Source of the DNA: Acidobacteriota bacterium
GTDB taxonomy: Bacteria > Acidobacteriota > Terriglobia > Bryobacterales > Bryobacteraceae
Direction: 5' to 3'
NCBI GenBank assembly: GCA_026394055.1
Contig: JAPKYZ010000043.1
Span: forward strand, 1-64,000
Length of the DNA: 64,000 nt
This document shows, piece by piece, positions 23,952 to 29,705 of this stretch (position 1 is its first letter; the number at the start of each line of letters is the position of its first letter). The notes under the pieces were generated by a model. That model was given only the letters and a program-made list of their open reading frames with translations. It was not told the origin of the DNA and did no database searches. A program made the translations under genes and the position numbers.

Positions 23952-24081
23952 GGTGGCGCAGGCTTCAGCCTGCAGCGGGACTTCAGCCCCGCCTGTTCAC
24001 GCAAACCACAGCAGCTCATGCTCTCCCTGAGCCCTACCGCAGCCTCTTCACTCCGCCCGCAGGCTGAAAGCCCGCGCCACC
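23952..24081. repeat. Inverted pair of repeat family A
   Basis: The plus copy at 23952-24000 contains the palindromic core GCAGGCTTCAGCCTGC and a GCGGGACTTCAGCCCCGC hairpin. An inverted partner at 24055-24081 (GCAGGCTGAAAGCCCGCGCC) lies inside the 3' end of the cytochrome gene on the minus strand. The plus copy is identical over 31 bases to the copy at 32771. It sits between convergent pyrE and cytochrome genes. Confidence 0.8.
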
Positions 24082-24762
24082 TTGCGTCGGCTGCGTTTTG
24101 GCCGGTGAGGGTTTCGCGATCGCGGTGCGGAAGTAGCCCTTCACGGGACCATTGGCTTCAAGGCGCGTGCCCGCAGGCAGAGCCATGGGGGTCCGCAGCC
24201 GGTAGACCGTGGCCGCGCGGGGAGCGGTGAGCACCCACAGCAATGGCTCGATGCGGCCATCGCTGAAGTGTGCCGTCACCCGCACGGGCGCCGCGGCTTC
24301 AAGAGCAGTCAAAGTGGTGCTGGCGAAGATATGCATCTGCGCTGAGATCGGCCGCAGTAGCCCGAGCGGGCGTGCCAGTGGCTCCGGCGCACGGGGCGCG
24401 GGCGGCAGCAGGTTGGGGTCCCCTTCGGGCGCGCCACCTTCCACCCATTCCGCGATCAGGATCAGCTCTTCCTGGGTAAGGCCGTGGTCCGGAGAGAAGT
24501 CGCCGAAGCCCTTGACGGCTCCCCAGGGCGGCATGCGACGGGTGAGCACTTCTTCCTGCATCGCTTTGGCCCAGGGGCGGGCCAGCTCATAATTATCCAG
24601 GCGCACCGCCGCGGCCGCGCCATCGGGCCGGTGGCAGGAAAGGCAGCGCTGGTTGACGATGCGCACGATCTCTTTCGACCAGGTGATTTTGGTCGAAATC
24701 GTGATGTGCGCAAAAAGAGAGGCCGCCGGCAGAGCGGCGGCCATCAACAGTTTCAACTTCAC
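24034..24762 (-). CDS. Secreted one-haem cytochrome c protein
   Basis: A 242-aa protein with a signal peptide (MKLKLLMAAALPAASLFAH) and one c-type haem site, C40-L-S-C43-H44. Then comes the helix ARPWAKAMQEEVLTRRMPPW and EWVEGGAPEG, as in the three larger neighbours. The C-terminal half is short and lacks the copper-ligand set of those neighbours, so it may be a truncated relative or a dedicated electron carrier. Its last residues (GGAGFQPAGG) are encoded by a copy of repeat family A, so the original end has probably been replaced. It lies 35 bp after the next gene upstream. Confidence 0.8.
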   Translation of the reverse strand: MKLKLLMAAALPAASLFAHITISTKITWSKEIVRIVNQRCLSCHRPDGAAAAVRLDNYELARPWAKAMQEEVLTRRMPPWGAVKGFGDFSPDHGLTQEELILIAEWVEGGAPEGDPNLLPPAPRAPEPLARPLGLLRPISAQMHIFASTTLTALEAAAPVRVTAHFSDGRIEPLLWVLTAPRAATVYRLRTPMALPAGTRLEANGPVKGYFRTAIAKPSPAKTQPTQGGAGFQPAGGVKRLR

Positions 24763-24797
24763 AAGTTCAACTTCACAGGAGACTCAAAGCCTGCAAG

Positions 24798-26093
24798 CTA
24801 TTCTTCCGTCTTGGGCGGCAGTTGCTTGCGCTGGAACCAGCTGTTGCGGTCGTGACGGGCATCAATCGCCACGTCAAAGAAGCCGTACATCATCTCTTCC
24901 CAGCTCTGTTCGCCCCAGGTGACGGTGGCTTTGGGGTCCGGGTTGTAGATGTTGTTGGCCGAGTTATCGAAGTATCCAACCGCTTCCAGCTTCATCCCGG
25001 CCTTCATCAGCATGGGCTTTTCCAGCTTGTAGGTCAGCTGCCAGTTGAAGTCGTACTTGTTCACCTTGAGCAGCGTCTCCTTCTGGTCCTCATTGATGAA
25101 GTTCATCTCGAAGGCCTTGCCGCGCAGGTGCATGTGGGGGAAGAAGCTCATCAGGGTGGCGTCATTGCGGAACGTCCAGGTGCCTGCAACGCGGTGGTTG
25201 TCAGCCCCTGGAGGAATCGCAAAGCCATCGTTACCCGCCGTCAGCGTCATGATCCGCTCCTCAGGCGCCTGCTTGGAATAGACCAAGCCGATCTTGGTCA
25301 TGTCGGAGGTGTCCTTTTTGGTGGACGTGTAGTGCATCTGGAACACAAGATCGGAGCCAGCCGGGAGAAGCTTGGCCTGCGTGGGCTTCCAGATATCGGG
25401 CAGATTGCCCGGGGTGTAGATGTGCAGAATCTCATTGCCGCCGCCGCCCACGTCAATGCGCCGGTCTTTCCCGGTGCGGTTGGGGATGTAGGGCACGCCG
25501 GGCTCCGCCTCGCGCAGCCACTTGGATTTCGCGTCACGGATGAAAACCACAATGTGGTGGACGACGCTACGGTCACTGGGCCGCGCTTCCACCATGTTCA
25601 CCCACTTGTCTTCCGTCAAGCCCGTGGGGATGACGATGTACTGGTAGTCGATCTTGGAGCCCGCCTGGACCGGGAAGGGCTTGGTCATACCGACCACCAG
25701 ATCCGGCGTCGGGATGTTCCAGCCGTCCACAAACGTCCGAGGTCCGCGCTTGTCCTTCTGGTTACCCTCCGGCGCGCCCGCGTCCACCCAAGCCGTGATG
25801 GTGTCGATCTCGGTCTGCGACATCGACCGGTCGTTGGAAAACTTGCCATGGTTGGCATCGGCAAACCACGGGGGCATCTTCTTGGAGGACACGGACGCCT
25901 TGATGGCTTTGGCCCAAGGGCGTACGTCCTGATAGCTCATCAGGGGCATCGGGCCGATTTCACCGGCGCGGTGGCATTCCTGGCACCGATTCATCATGAT
26001 CGGCTCGACGTCCTTGTAATACGTCGGCTTCTCGGTGGCAGGCCCAGCCAGCAGCGCGGTAGCGCCCAGGCTGAAAATGGCGGCAAGCTTCAT
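24798..26093 (-). CDS. Cytochrome c - PHM-like copper monooxygenase fusion 1
   Basis: A 431-aa secreted protein (signal peptide to LAG-PA). The N-terminal domain binds one haem c (C37-Q-E-C40-H41) and ends near AWVDAGAPEG (about residue 110). The C-terminal part shows the six copper ligands of peptidylglycine alpha-hydroxylating monooxygenase in order and spacing: H179-H180 (VVHHIVVF), H254 (QMHYTS), H320 and H322 (PHMHLRGK), and a Met in WEEMMYG (401/402). An ascorbate-type hydroxylase fed by the haem is an inference. The ATG at 26093 has AAGGAG in front. It is paralogous to the genes at 26815 and 28337. Confidence 0.82.
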   Translation of the reverse strand: MKLAAIFSLGATALLAGPATEKPTYYKDVEPIMMNRCQECHRAGEIGPMPLMSYQDVRPWAKAIKASVSSKKMPPWFADANHGKFSNDRSMSQTEIDTITAWVDAGAPEGNQKDKRGPRTFVDGWNIPTPDLVVGMTKPFPVQAGSKIDYQYIVIPTGLTEDKWVNMVEARPSDRSVVHHIVVFIRDAKSKWLREAEPGVPYIPNRTGKDRRIDVGGGGNEILHIYTPGNLPDIWKPTQAKLLPAGSDLVFQMHYTSTKKDTSDMTKIGLVYSKQAPEERIMTLTAGNDGFAIPPGADNHRVAGTWTFRNDATLMSFFPHMHLRGKAFEMNFINEDQKETLLKVNKYDFNWQLTYKLEKPMLMKAGMKLEAVGYFDNSANNIYNPDPKATVTWGEQSWEEMMYGFFDVAIDARHDRNSWFQRKQLPPKTEE

Positions 26094-26282
26094 GCCTTGT
26101 CTCCTTGAGTACAAATTGGTCTTTTTTCAGGATACGACGGATGGAGGTGTTGAGTTCCATCAGTCAAAGCTTCCACGAAAATGTTTCCGTATTTTTTTCA
26201 ACGCTGTGCCCACCCTTGAAACGTTGTTTGCTTGCTTCCGGCCCGATCCTTGGTGCAGCCTGGATCGCTAAAGCCAGGTACC

Positions 26283-26334
26283 CTTATCCGCCGATAAGAA
26301 GACCATTGCGACGCTTTTGAGTCTGCCGTACAAT
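26283..26334 (+). promoter_or_regulatory. Sigma-70-type promoter with flanking palindrome
   Basis: TTGCGA (26306-26311) and TACAAT (26329-26334) are separated by exactly 17 bases. A perfect 6-4-6 palindrome, CTTATC-N4-GATAAG (26283-26298), ends 7 bases before the -35. It precedes the two small coupled genes starting at 26386. The palindrome is a candidate operator. Confidence 0.55.
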
Positions 26335-26385
26335 CGGGCTATGGCGGCACCGGCTCCGATACCACTGTCAACAAGGAGCAAACCT

Positions 26386-26553
26386 ATGCCAATACCAGTG
26401 CACGAAGATCGACTTGCTTCATTGGCTCACCGCTATCGGGTAGTCTTGTTTACCAGCCCGGTATGGCTGGCGGTGGTGCTGATGATTTTGAGCCACTACT
26501 CCAGTTCCTTGCGCGGTACGCTCCAGTTTATGGCAGGTTCTCCGGTCAGATGA
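26386..26553 (+). CDS. Small single-pass membrane protein, unknown
   Basis: A 55-aa protein with one clear hydrophobic helix (VVLFTSPVWLAVVLMILS, about residues 22-39) after a charged N-terminus (HEDRLASLAHRYR). I do not recognise it. ATG 26386 has AAGGAG seven bases upstream and a good promoter 52 bases before it, so I prefer it to the ATG at 26341 or the earlier start at 26317. The stop overlaps the next gene in ATGA. Confidence 0.55.
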   Translation: MPIPVHEDRLASLAHRYRVVLFTSPVWLAVVLMILSHYSSSLRGTLQFMAGSPVR

Positions 26554-26810
26554 CTGGTGCCCGGATCTTCTGGTGGGGAGTCGCAGGAGCGATTGCGCCA
26601 GAGATCACTCGTTTGTTCAAGCTGGTTGCATCGGGGCATCCGCTACCAAATGTAAACTGGCCCCTCTATTTCCCACTGCTCGCGGTTTTTGCTTGCCTGG
26701 GTGGTTTCGTGGCGATTGCCTGGAAACCAGATAGCGAGTGGAAAGCTTTGTGGGTGGGGGCGTCTTTACCGGCCTTAGTGACGTCGCTGGTGCAGCTACC
26801 ACCCCCGTAA
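26550..26810 (+). CDS. Small membrane protein, unknown
   Basis: An 86-aa protein with two or three hydrophobic segments (ARIFWWGVAGAIAPEI, LYFPLLAVFACLGGFVAIAW and LWVGASLPALVTSLVQL), probably inner-membrane. I do not recognise the family. The frame is open further upstream, but the ATG at 26550 forms an ATGA overlap with the preceding small gene, arguing for translational coupling. It ends 4 bp before the stop of the convergent cytochrome fusion. Confidence 0.6.
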   Translation: MTGARIFWWGVAGAIAPEITRLFKLVASGHPLPNVNWPLYFPLLAVFACLGGFVAIAWKPDSEWKALWVGASLPALVTSLVQLPPP

Positions 26811-26814
26811 GCCG

Positions 26815-28119
26815 CTACTCTGCGGGAGCTTTCTTTTCGGGCCGCATGATCTGCATCGGGTCCAGCTTGGTCGGGAAGGCGACGTCGAACCAGCCGATCA
26901 TCATCTCCTCCCAGCTTTGATCTCCCCAGCGGACTTCGGCTTTGGGATCAGGGTTGGCGGGGTTGTTGGCGGAATTGTCAAAGTGGGCGGTGCACTCGAT
27001 CCGCGTGCCCTTAGGCAGCTTCTTGTTACCGGCCACGTAGTAGTAGAGCTGCCAGTTGAAGTCGTACTTGGGCACCCGCAGCAGGGTCTCCGTTTCGCCG
27101 GTGGGATAGATGGCGCGGTACTCAAAGTCCTTGCCCCGCAGGTGCATGTGGGGCATCAGCGAGACCAGCTCGGTCTCCTGGTAGAGCGTCATTTGAGAAT
27201 CGACGCGGTGGTTGGCCTCTTGCGGCGGGATCACGAAGCGGGCATTGGTGGCTTGCAGCGTCATCACTCGTTGCTTCGGTTCAGCCTTTGAGAAGATGAG
27301 GCCTAGCCGGGACCGGTCAGTAGTCGCTTTGCCATTCGAGGTGTAGTGCAATTGCAGGACGATGTCCGTCCCCGCCTTCACCAGCTTGGCTTGACCTTCG
27401 GGCAGCACCGCCGGAGGGAGACCGGGGGCATAGCCCACTAGCAGTTCCGTCGCCCCGCCGCCCTCGCCGCCGCCCTTCTTGGGGATAAACGGGACACCCA
27501 GCTCACGGCCGGCGAACCACTTGGAACCGGCTGGACGCAGGAAGGCGATCACATGGTGGGTGACGGCGCGGTCGCCCGGCCGGACTTCCGCCATCTGGAT
27601 CCATCGGTCTTCCTTGAAGCCCGTGGGGATGATCATGTAGGTGTATTCCACCGTGCCCGCGGCCGGCACTTCGACCGCCTGGGGCATCTCAATCACCAGA
27701 TCCGGCTGCCCGATCGACCAGCCCGTTACGAACTTGGCGGGCGCCGGAGCCTCTTTGGGGTTGCCAGCGGGTGCGCCACCATCGGCCCAGGCGGTGAGCG
27801 TCGCCAACTCGACCGGAGTCAGCTTGCGTTCGTTGTGGAACTTGCCAACGCCTTCTTCGGCAAACCACGGCGGCATCTTCTTGCTTGAGACCGAGGCCTT
27901 GATCGCTTTGGCCCAGGGCCGCACCTGATCGTATGTCGTCAACGCCATCGGCGCCGCTTCGCCCGCCCGGTGGCATTCCTGGCAGTTCCGTTGCAGGATC
28001 GGCAGCACGTCCTTATGGAAGGTCGGAACGGCGGCCAACAACATTGGCGTGCATCCGCTAATCATCGCGGCCAACCGTGCCATCGCGGCCAACTGAGCCG
28101 CTCGGGTCATCAATCGCAT
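26815..28119 (-). CDS. Cytochrome c - PHM-like copper monooxygenase fusion 2
   Basis: A 434-aa exported paralogue of the 24798 gene. The leader contains an SGC (residue 23), so lipoprotein processing is possible. The haem c site is C46-Q-E-C49-H50. The copper ligands line up as H188-H189 (THHVIAF), H258 (QLHYTS), H324 and H326 (PHMHLRGK) and Met 406/407 (WEEMMIGW). A Gly-rich loop KKGGGEGGGA lies near residue 216. ATG 28119 follows GGGGAGAG at a suitable distance; the frame extends upstream without leader character. The substrate is unknown. Confidence 0.82.
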   Translation of the reverse strand: MRLMTRAAQLAAMARLAAMISGCTPMLLAAVPTFHKDVLPILQRNCQECHRAGEAAPMALTTYDQVRPWAKAIKASVSSKKMPPWFAEEGVGKFHNERKLTPVELATLTAWADGGAPAGNPKEAPAPAKFVTGWSIGQPDLVIEMPQAVEVPAAGTVEYTYMIIPTGFKEDRWIQMAEVRPGDRAVTHHVIAFLRPAGSKWFAGRELGVPFIPKKGGGEGGGATELLVGYAPGLPPAVLPEGQAKLVKAGTDIVLQLHYTSNGKATTDRSRLGLIFSKAEPKQRVMTLQATNARFVIPPQEANHRVDSQMTLYQETELVSLMPHMHLRGKDFEYRAIYPTGETETLLRVPKYDFNWQLYYYVAGNKKLPKGTRIECTAHFDNSANNPANPDPKAEVRWGDQSWEEMMIGWFDVAFPTKLDPMQIMRPEKKAPAE

Positions 28120-28189
28120 GCGCACACTCTCCCCAGGCCGAATTATGGCATCGCTGGGACGATTCGGATAGAGGGATTTTGGGCCATTA

Positions 28190-28238
28190 GAAAAAAAAAC
28201 AGCCCGGAGGCGGGTGAGCACCCACCGTCTCGGGCTGT
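28190..28238 (-). terminator. Rho-independent terminator of cytochrome fusion 3
   Basis: On the minus strand a compound hairpin (outer stem ACAGCCCG at 28231-28238 with CGGGCTGT at 28199-28206, inner GGTGGGT/ACCCGCC) is followed by nine T residues (28191-28199). It lies about 100 bp downstream of the stop at 28337 and upstream of fusion 2, so fusion 3 is transcribed separately. Confidence 0.9.
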
Positions 28239-28287
28239 ATTTCGACTCTCAACATGCGGCAGCTTCGGCATGCTACGGCGATGGGAC

Positions 28288-28320
28288 AGGCCCCTGCTGC
28301 TGGTCGGGGCTCGGTCCGAG
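28288..28320 (+). repeat. Repeat family C, third copy
   Basis: This unit begins AGGCCCCT and ends GTCGGGGCTCGGTCCGAG. It matches the plus copy at 4509-4542 at both ends, with a divergent 8-base middle. It lies in the 3' spacer of cytochrome fusion 3, just before the terminator in the direction of transcription. Confidence 0.65.
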
Positions 28321-28336
28321 TTCCCCGACGGGAGGT

Positions 28337-29647
28337 CTATTCGAGCCCAGCGGCCGGAGTGGCGGGGGCTTTGCGTGCTGGGCGAAGCAGTTCCTGCGGG
28401 TCCTTGCTTGCGTCGAAGGTGATATTGAAGAAGCCGATCATCATCTCTTCCCAGCTCTGGTCGCCCCACTTGACGTCCTTGGTCGGGTCCGGGTTGAACT
28501 TGTTGTTGGCCGAGTTGTCAAACCAGGCGCTGGCCTCGATCTTGGACCCCTTGGTGAGCTGGAGCGGCTGGTCGAGCTCATAAAAAAGCTGCCAGTTGAA
28601 GTCCCAGCGCATGTGCAGCAGTTCAGTCTTGGTGCCATCGGGTTGGGCCAGCCGCATCTCAAACGCCTTGCCCCGCACGTGCATATGCGGCGCCAGGCCG
28701 ATCAGCTTGGCATCGCCCTGCAGGGTGAGCGCGGCATCGACGCGGTGATTGTCCGCGCCTGCGGGAATGGTGAAACGGCCTTCGGCAGCGGCCAAAGTCA
28801 TCACGCGCTCCTTGGGCTTCTCGGTGGCGAACTTCACGCCGATCTTGGAGCGATCCGCGCCCGCCTTGCCCGTCGCCGTGTAGTGGAGCTGCAGCACCAA
28901 GTCGGAGCCGGCCTTGATCAGCTTGGCCTGGCCGGGCAGGTAGCGCTCCGGCATCGTCCCGGGGGCGTAGCCCACCAGATATTCCGCCTGGAACAACCCG
29001 CCACCACCGCCGCCCCGGCGTTGACCTTCAACGCGCGGCAGCTGGTCCGGCGTGAAGATGACGCCCGGCTTGGCACCCGCCAGCCAGTTGGAGCCGGGCT
29101 CCCGGATGAAGGCAATGATGTGGTGGTTCACCGCGCGGTTGCTGGGCCGGGCCTCGACCGCGGTCACCCACTTATCTTCAGTGAAGCCCGTGGGGAGCAC
29201 GACGTACTGGTAGGCCACCGTGCCTTCCGCCGGCACATTGAACGCGTCCGGCATCTCGAAAACTTGGTCTGGCTTGCCCATCGACCAACCTTCGGCAAAG
29301 GTGACGGGCGCCGGAGCATCCTTGGGGTTGCCTTCGGCGGCGCCAGTATCGGCCCACGCCACCAATACATCCAGATCGGCCTTCGAAAGCGACCGGTCGT
29401 TGTGGAACTTCACGCCCGAATCGGCAAACCACGGCGGCATCTTCTTGGTCTGGACCGCCTGCTTGATCGCCTTAGCCCAGGGCCGGGTCTCCTTATAGTT
29501 CAGGAACGTCATCGGCGCCGTCTCGCCCGGCCGGTGGCAACCCTGACAGTTGCGCTGCAACACCGGCATCACGTCCTTGTGAAAAGTGACGGCCGGGGCC
29601 GCCATCAAAGTGGCGGAAACCGCCGATAGACACACTAAGATCCGCAT
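28337..29647 (-). CDS. Cytochrome c - PHM-like copper monooxygenase fusion 3
   Basis: A 436-aa secreted paralogue (leader MRILVCLSAVSATLMAA). The haem c site is C34-Q-G-C37-H38. The copper ligands are H175-H176 (NHHIIAF), H255 (QLHYTA), H321 and H323 (PHMHVRGK) and Met 402/403 (WEEMMIGF). A poly-Gly loop (RRGGGGGGL, near residue 211) sits where fusion 2 has its Gly-rich loop. ATG 29647 is preferred over the GTG two codons earlier because GAGAG lies six bases before it. It is divergent from the flgM operon and ends at a strong terminator. Confidence 0.82.
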   Translation of the reverse strand: MRILVCLSAVSATLMAAPAVTFHKDVMPVLQRNCQGCHRPGETAPMTFLNYKETRPWAKAIKQAVQTKKMPPWFADSGVKFHNDRSLSKADLDVLVAWADTGAAEGNPKDAPAPVTFAEGWSMGKPDQVFEMPDAFNVPAEGTVAYQYVVLPTGFTEDKWVTAVEARPSNRAVNHHIIAFIREPGSNWLAGAKPGVIFTPDQLPRVEGQRRGGGGGGLFQAEYLVGYAPGTMPERYLPGQAKLIKAGSDLVLQLHYTATGKAGADRSKIGVKFATEKPKERVMTLAAAEGRFTIPAGADNHRVDAALTLQGDAKLIGLAPHMHVRGKAFEMRLAQPDGTKTELLHMRWDFNWQLFYELDQPLQLTKGSKIEASAWFDNSANNKFNPDPTKDVKWGDQSWEEMMIGFFNITFDASKDPQELLRPARKAPATPAAGLE

Positions 29648-29705
29648 AGGCACTCTCTAGACAACTATACGGAACTTTCGCCATTGAAGGTCCAACAAAA
29701 CGCTA

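Follow-up and report, generated by a model that had tools for sequence, protein, structure and literature searches.

Between two cytochrome c-PHM genes in an Acidobacteriota genome lie two very short reading frames that overlap by four bases. The question raised by this locus is whether such small frames are genes at all and, if so, whether they serve the enzymes on either side or belong to a different system. We examined the surrounding 64-kb window (the whole stretch of DNA analyzed, 64,000 nucleotides) together with genomes of the same phylum. A sequence-only reading of positions 26283 to 26810 had described two tiny coupled membrane genes behind a textbook promoter, and the elements it named, namely a palindrome, a promoter match, AAGGAG, both frames, and the ATGA overlap, are all present where it placed them.

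A Conserved Pair of Small Membrane Genes

Gene 1 (26386-26553 including the stop, forward strand) encodes a short-tailed 55-aa protein for which a single membrane helix is predicted. This single-helix form is indicated by hydropathy and by a structure model with helices at residues 5-23 and 25-50 (pLDDT 70.5, built from two sequences with the last residue omitted). Gene 2 (26550-26810 including the stop, forward strand) encodes an 86-aa protein of three predicted helices from an unnamed family of small membrane proteins, and its model, also built from two sequences, has three helices and is of poor quality (pLDDT 59.8). The ATGA shared by the start of gene 2 and the stop of gene 1 occupies 26550-26553 on the forward strand. 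Frame length alone is no proof of genes, because shuffles of the 701-bp spacer produced an ATG frame of at least 55 aa in 425 of 1000 cases and of at least 86 aa in 109 of 1000.

That the genes are real is argued by a matching pair with the same overlap in another genome of the phylum. The 86-aa protein had one relative in a scan of genome contigs, JANXYJ010000054.1 (G169:C175), from a second Acidobacteriota genome, with 51% protein identity over residues 7-84. Upstream of this homologue is a small frame whose start could lie at any of several codons and whose ribosome site is weak; it ends in AGATGAC exactly as gene 1 does. The two small proteins have in common the pattern RYR...L.TSP...AV...I, and their comparison scored 57, where the best of 2000 shuffles scored 41. 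Over ungapped cores of 33 codons for gene 1 and 46 codons for gene 2, mismatches between the window and G169 at codon positions 1, 2, and 3 numbered 17, 8, and 25 for gene 1 and 16, 11, and 31 for gene 2, which is the pattern of protein-coding selection in both frames. Read in either of the other two frames, those cores are interrupted by stops in the window sequence, the G169 sequence, or both. When an equal number of changes was placed at random, 64 of 5000 trials reached the observed protein identity for gene 1 and 0 of 5000 did so for gene 2. The idea that these are open frames arising by chance draws on the shuffles, which do produce frames of such length, but a conserved pair with a common overlap, and with substitutions of the coding type at a protein identity of 51%, makes it hardly credible. 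The search for a conserved ATGA pair that the sequence-only reading had proposed therefore found both frames and their overlap in G169, conservation extends to each frame, and the description as two coupled membrane genes is supported. A 115-aa frame from the ATG at 26463 was considered as the true gene 2 and rejected, as G169 has an in-frame stop shortly upstream of the homologous start. The G169 locus lies in a different context from that of the window, with neighbors that by eye resemble recA, thiG, and cpaB.

Signals Upstream of the Pair

The signals before gene 1 are of unequal weight. The 6-4-6 palindrome CTTATC-CGCC-GATAAG (26283-26298) is of ordinary frequency, since the 64-kb window contains 18 perfect 6-4-6 palindromes and 133 when loops of 3-8 are allowed. 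CTTATC-N4-GATAAG occurs once in the genome, and the palindrome was rejected as a regulator site: it has one copy genome-wide, yet is of an ordinary kind. The sigma-70-like match TTGCGA-N17-TACAAT (26306-26334, forward strand) is indeed present, but with a score of 9/12 it is only suggestive. One match at this score was observed in 3 kb where 0.6 were expected, so it is suggestive by position alone, and 10 such matches occur in the 64-kb window on both strands; from those rates, a match would fall on the correct strand in the 100 bp before the ATG with an estimated chance of about 1%. A Shine-Dalgarno-like AAGGAG (26373-26378, forward strand) is recognizable by sequence before the ATG at 26386. 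The earlier judgment that the arrangement is unlikely by chance thus holds for the coupled frames, which are conserved in G169, holds weakly for the promoter match, and does not hold for the palindrome.

A Probable Insertion, Apparently Independent of the Cytochrome c-PHM Genes

The enzyme genes at 24034-29653 of the window are three in number, arranged in tandem, and of the cytochrome c + PHM-like (Cu2_monoox_C) type; a shorter gene in the same region is cytochrome c-like. The same three tandem genes are present in the same order in both congeners (G070 and G110) of a three-genome genus comparison that includes the window genome, and the spacer there is short. Marker words shared by the three genomes are 87 and 13 bp apart in the two congeners versus 699 bp here. 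The segment that is absent from the congeners spans approximately 26141-26825, and no common word of 7 or more bases was found at its two termini. The description of the pair as inserted between two cytochrome c-PHM genes is thus literally supported by near-empty sites in G070 and G110, and the A5 profile search (see below) found no match to the 86-aa family in either genome. Composition also sets the segment apart, with a GC content of 54.7% over 26141-26814 versus a mean of 62.4 (sd 2.6) in equal-size windows. The GC3 of genes 1 and 2 is 61.1 and 60.5%, whereas the three cytochrome c-PHM genes have 78.2-82.9% and two others nearby have 81.4 and 83.5%. The simplest reading is that the segment would have been gained in the window lineage; the alternative is its deletion in G070 and G110.

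It had also been suggested that the pair could anchor the neighboring cytochrome c-PHM proteins in the membrane or act in their assembly. Its placement between two of their genes is what speaks for this. However, the pair is on the opposite strand to these genes, its composition differs from theirs, and the congeners carry the same enzymes without it. When the three cytochrome c-PHM proteins were compared by tblastn with 16 stretches, only the two congener stretches matched; the enzyme was found in 0 of 14 stretches around three-helix family members, a set that includes two weak members (G436:C1 and G548) and is drawn from loci taken as more than a 3-kb piece, the Vibrio plasmid aside. With congeners that have the enzymes and no pair, and relatives of the pair that have no enzyme beside them, a link to the cytochrome c-PHM genes was rejected, and a role as their anchor or assembly factor is very improbable. 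The other suggestion made for the pair, an unrelated two-peptide membrane system, fits best among those put forward.

An Unnamed Three-Helix Family with Changing Partners

Gene 2 is related to an unnamed family (profile A5) over most of its 86 aa, including a conserved Gly and Pro in helix 3; the conserved positions in the three-helix proteins are G70 and P74. With weak rows included, profile A1 matched 8 of 396 genomes of the phylum (E at most 0.01), profile A3 matched 11 of 399 genomes of the class (E at most 0.001), and profile A5 matched 10 of 237 genomes of the bacterial family (E at most 0.001). Weak, short, or broken rows were dropped from the A1 search (G089, G228), the A3 search (G134, G068, G018, G764), the A5 search (G068, G134, G137, G117), and the search with the 86-aa protein as query (G117, G137, G142, G019, G006, G025). 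Six genomes were taken as full-length in the A5 search (G000, G124, G023, G041, G169, and G593), and these match by construction, their sequences being in the alignment, except for G593 and one G041 copy. Three subgroups of the family were joined by hhalign at E values of 1.7e-11, 1.4e-8, and 1.5e-16, scores of a kind that membrane composition inflates.

Gene 2 matched no family in Pfam, PHROGs, or PADLOC, its one NCBIfam row was at chance level (E 0.13), and it had no meaningful PDB match. The 86-aa protein likewise had no match in phages, plasmids, or viral contigs, and on this ground a phage or plasmid origin was rejected. The same searches with its relatives were also negative, with the exception of one Vibrio plasmid, whose protein as query matched itself alone. 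Literature searches, for which most subscription papers were out of reach, returned no description of such a pair or family. Two G041 copies of the three-helix gene (C146 at L006 and C169 at L014) each contain one in-frame TAG and are probably decayed; that G041 reads TAG as sense was rejected because nearby long frames there also end in TAG.

Three-helix genes often come second in a close unit whose first gene varies in type. A small upstream gene is found in the window, G169, G593, G041:C146, G318, G485, G519, G495, G730, and the Vibrio plasmid, while inspection by eye gave no clear upstream partner for G124, G023, and G436:C10. In the window and G169, the partners are homologous single-pass peptides. 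The 55-aa protein as query reached 10 of 237 genomes at E at most 0.1, with only itself under 0.02; G169 is its one clear relative and stands out with a two-row profile that includes it. Short hydrophobic frames of 55 and 52 aa lie just upstream in G593 and G041:C146, at gaps of 19 and 6 nt, and share identical residues in 16 of 55 columns. No homology to the 55-aa protein was detectable for these frames (the L006 score was reached by 613 of 2000 shuffles; hhalign E 0.097). The partners in G318 and G485 are soluble and mutually homologous (score of 89 versus a shuffle maximum of 53). At L036 (7031-7339) and L037, a small soluble protein that precedes the three-helix gene is homologous across two distant Acidobacteriota families. 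A fourth kind, which we have named winged-helix-like, precedes the three-helix gene in G519, G495, G730, and the Vibrio europaeus plasmid, where one base separates the two genes. The Vibrio partner resembles those of G519 and G730 beyond all of 2000 shuffles, whereas G730 and G519 do not resemble each other to this degree (89 of 2000). A common C-terminal docking tail was considered for the partners and found unsupported: only 3 of 21 tail comparisons were rare in shuffles (2, 3, and 6 of 1000), and two of these three fell within one partner type. On the V. europaeus plasmid (NZ_CP064859.1, L092 7691-8282), the 90-aa winged-helix-like gene and the three-helix gene lie between DUF4238 and DUF262 genes, and gene pairs of the same kind occur in Acidobacteriota.

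Possible Functions of the Pair

The anatomy of the pair argues for a two-subunit membrane complex whose parts would be made in matched amounts by coupled translation. We consider it reasonably probable that the segment is an accessory cassette, probably acquired horizontally, for such a complex and independent of the cytochrome c-PHM genes. One short mRNA would be read from the local promoter, and ribosomes ending gene 1 would reinitiate on gene 2, keeping the two products in balance. In the inner membrane, the single-pass 55-aa protein may then bind the three-helix 86-aa protein and set its stability or activity, with the latter as the constant core of the family and the small upstream partner as its exchangeable part. 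As a first guess, the complex, a candidate sensor, leak, or effector, may act on the membrane as a stress or conflict module.

Known systems offer partial parallels. The nearest described layout found is EACC1, a two-gene membrane-associated conflict system (Kaur et al. 2020, PMC7159879) in which the upstream gene encodes a short single-helix membrane protein and the second a caspase-type multidomain effector. The likeness is one of form alone, in having two genes with a short single-membrane-helix product upstream. Gene 2 of the window instead encodes an 86-aa three-helix protein, in which Pfam found no caspase or cyclase domain. The ATGA arrangement is that of termination-reinitiation overlap pairs, which often encode subunits of one complex (PMC6728339, PMC10666635), and subunits of heteromeric complexes are overrepresented among genes with short overlaps (PMC10666635). 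Termination-reinitiation is a general mechanism rather than a family, and coupling in the window pair is inferred from its sequence. Searches of phage families and records returned no phage holin or phage membrane protein for the pair. Small type I toxin peptides and holin pairs are also short membrane proteins, often in tight units; the window pair resembles them in being short membrane proteins and differs in lacking a phage match.

A more specific possibility is a small defense or toxin-like module, in which a trigger would cause gene 2 to perturb the inner membrane, with gene 1 restraining or anchoring it. The sparse distribution, varied contexts, and insertion are consistent with this, as are the hhalign ties between subgroups (E 1.4e-8 to 1.5e-16) and the neighbors of certain distant relatives. 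The G519 relative is directly upstream of a trypsin-like peptidase that matches PADLOC PDC-S45, the G742 relative has as its neighbor an FGE-domain protein, itself next to a DruE-like gene, in which caspase-like motifs were recognized by eye, and the Vibrio europaeus plasmid member follows its 90-aa partner and precedes the DUF262 gene. The pair itself, however, matched nothing in PADLOC (PADLOC-DB 2.0.0), PHROGs, or phage and viral records and has no defense-type neighbor; the two flanking cytochrome genes matched no PADLOC-DB 2.0.0 system. There is no peptidase at the window locus, nor beside the relatives in G495 and G223, the two other genomes of the G519 genus, in the stretches examined. 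Most contexts are by eye without a defense gene, in a survey where few neighbors were scanned against PADLOC, and relatives otherwise occupy unrelated places, with an NAD kinase (by eye) as the neighbor in G593. The earlier label of toxin-like or phage-defense-like therefore finds no counterpart among PADLOC and PHROGs families and some echo near distant relatives; a defense-like role is possible on the strength of two or three of these, and the specific module is a tentative proposition. Alternatively, the genes may form an accessory transport or stress pair with a mild housekeeping role, such as ion leak or lipid or metal handling. The conserved Gly and Pro (G70, P74) and the chromosomal location are compatible with this, plasmid searches with the window protein and with three relatives having been negative, but the pair is very sparse within the family and no link to transport genes was seen, which leaves such a role improbable. 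Because defense-type genes occur near distant relatives only and contexts are otherwise ordinary by eye, we prefer the accessory two-subunit complex to the defense module.

If the whole family is considered, one could speculate that it is a widespread, unnamed class of two-gene membrane modules spanning phyla, in which a constant three-helix core is combined with exchangeable upstream partners (winged-helix, coiled soluble, or single-pass membrane) as a sensor-effector system in bacterial conflict; we regard this as rather unlikely. The window pair would be its smallest, all-membrane form. The importance of the locus is at present moderate. It illustrates that tiny overlapping frames of a kind easily lost to annotation can be true accessory genes. 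It also outlines a family of small membrane proteins that has no name and whose upstream partners are swapped; should the defense-like reading prove true, a minimal membrane module would join the list of candidates. On a short G742 contig (L073 1824-3656, 2-1600), a protein with an FGE-sulfatase domain and, by eye, caspase-like motifs is encoded between the three-helix and DruE-like genes, and it is possible that this arrangement is an undescribed defense neighborhood.
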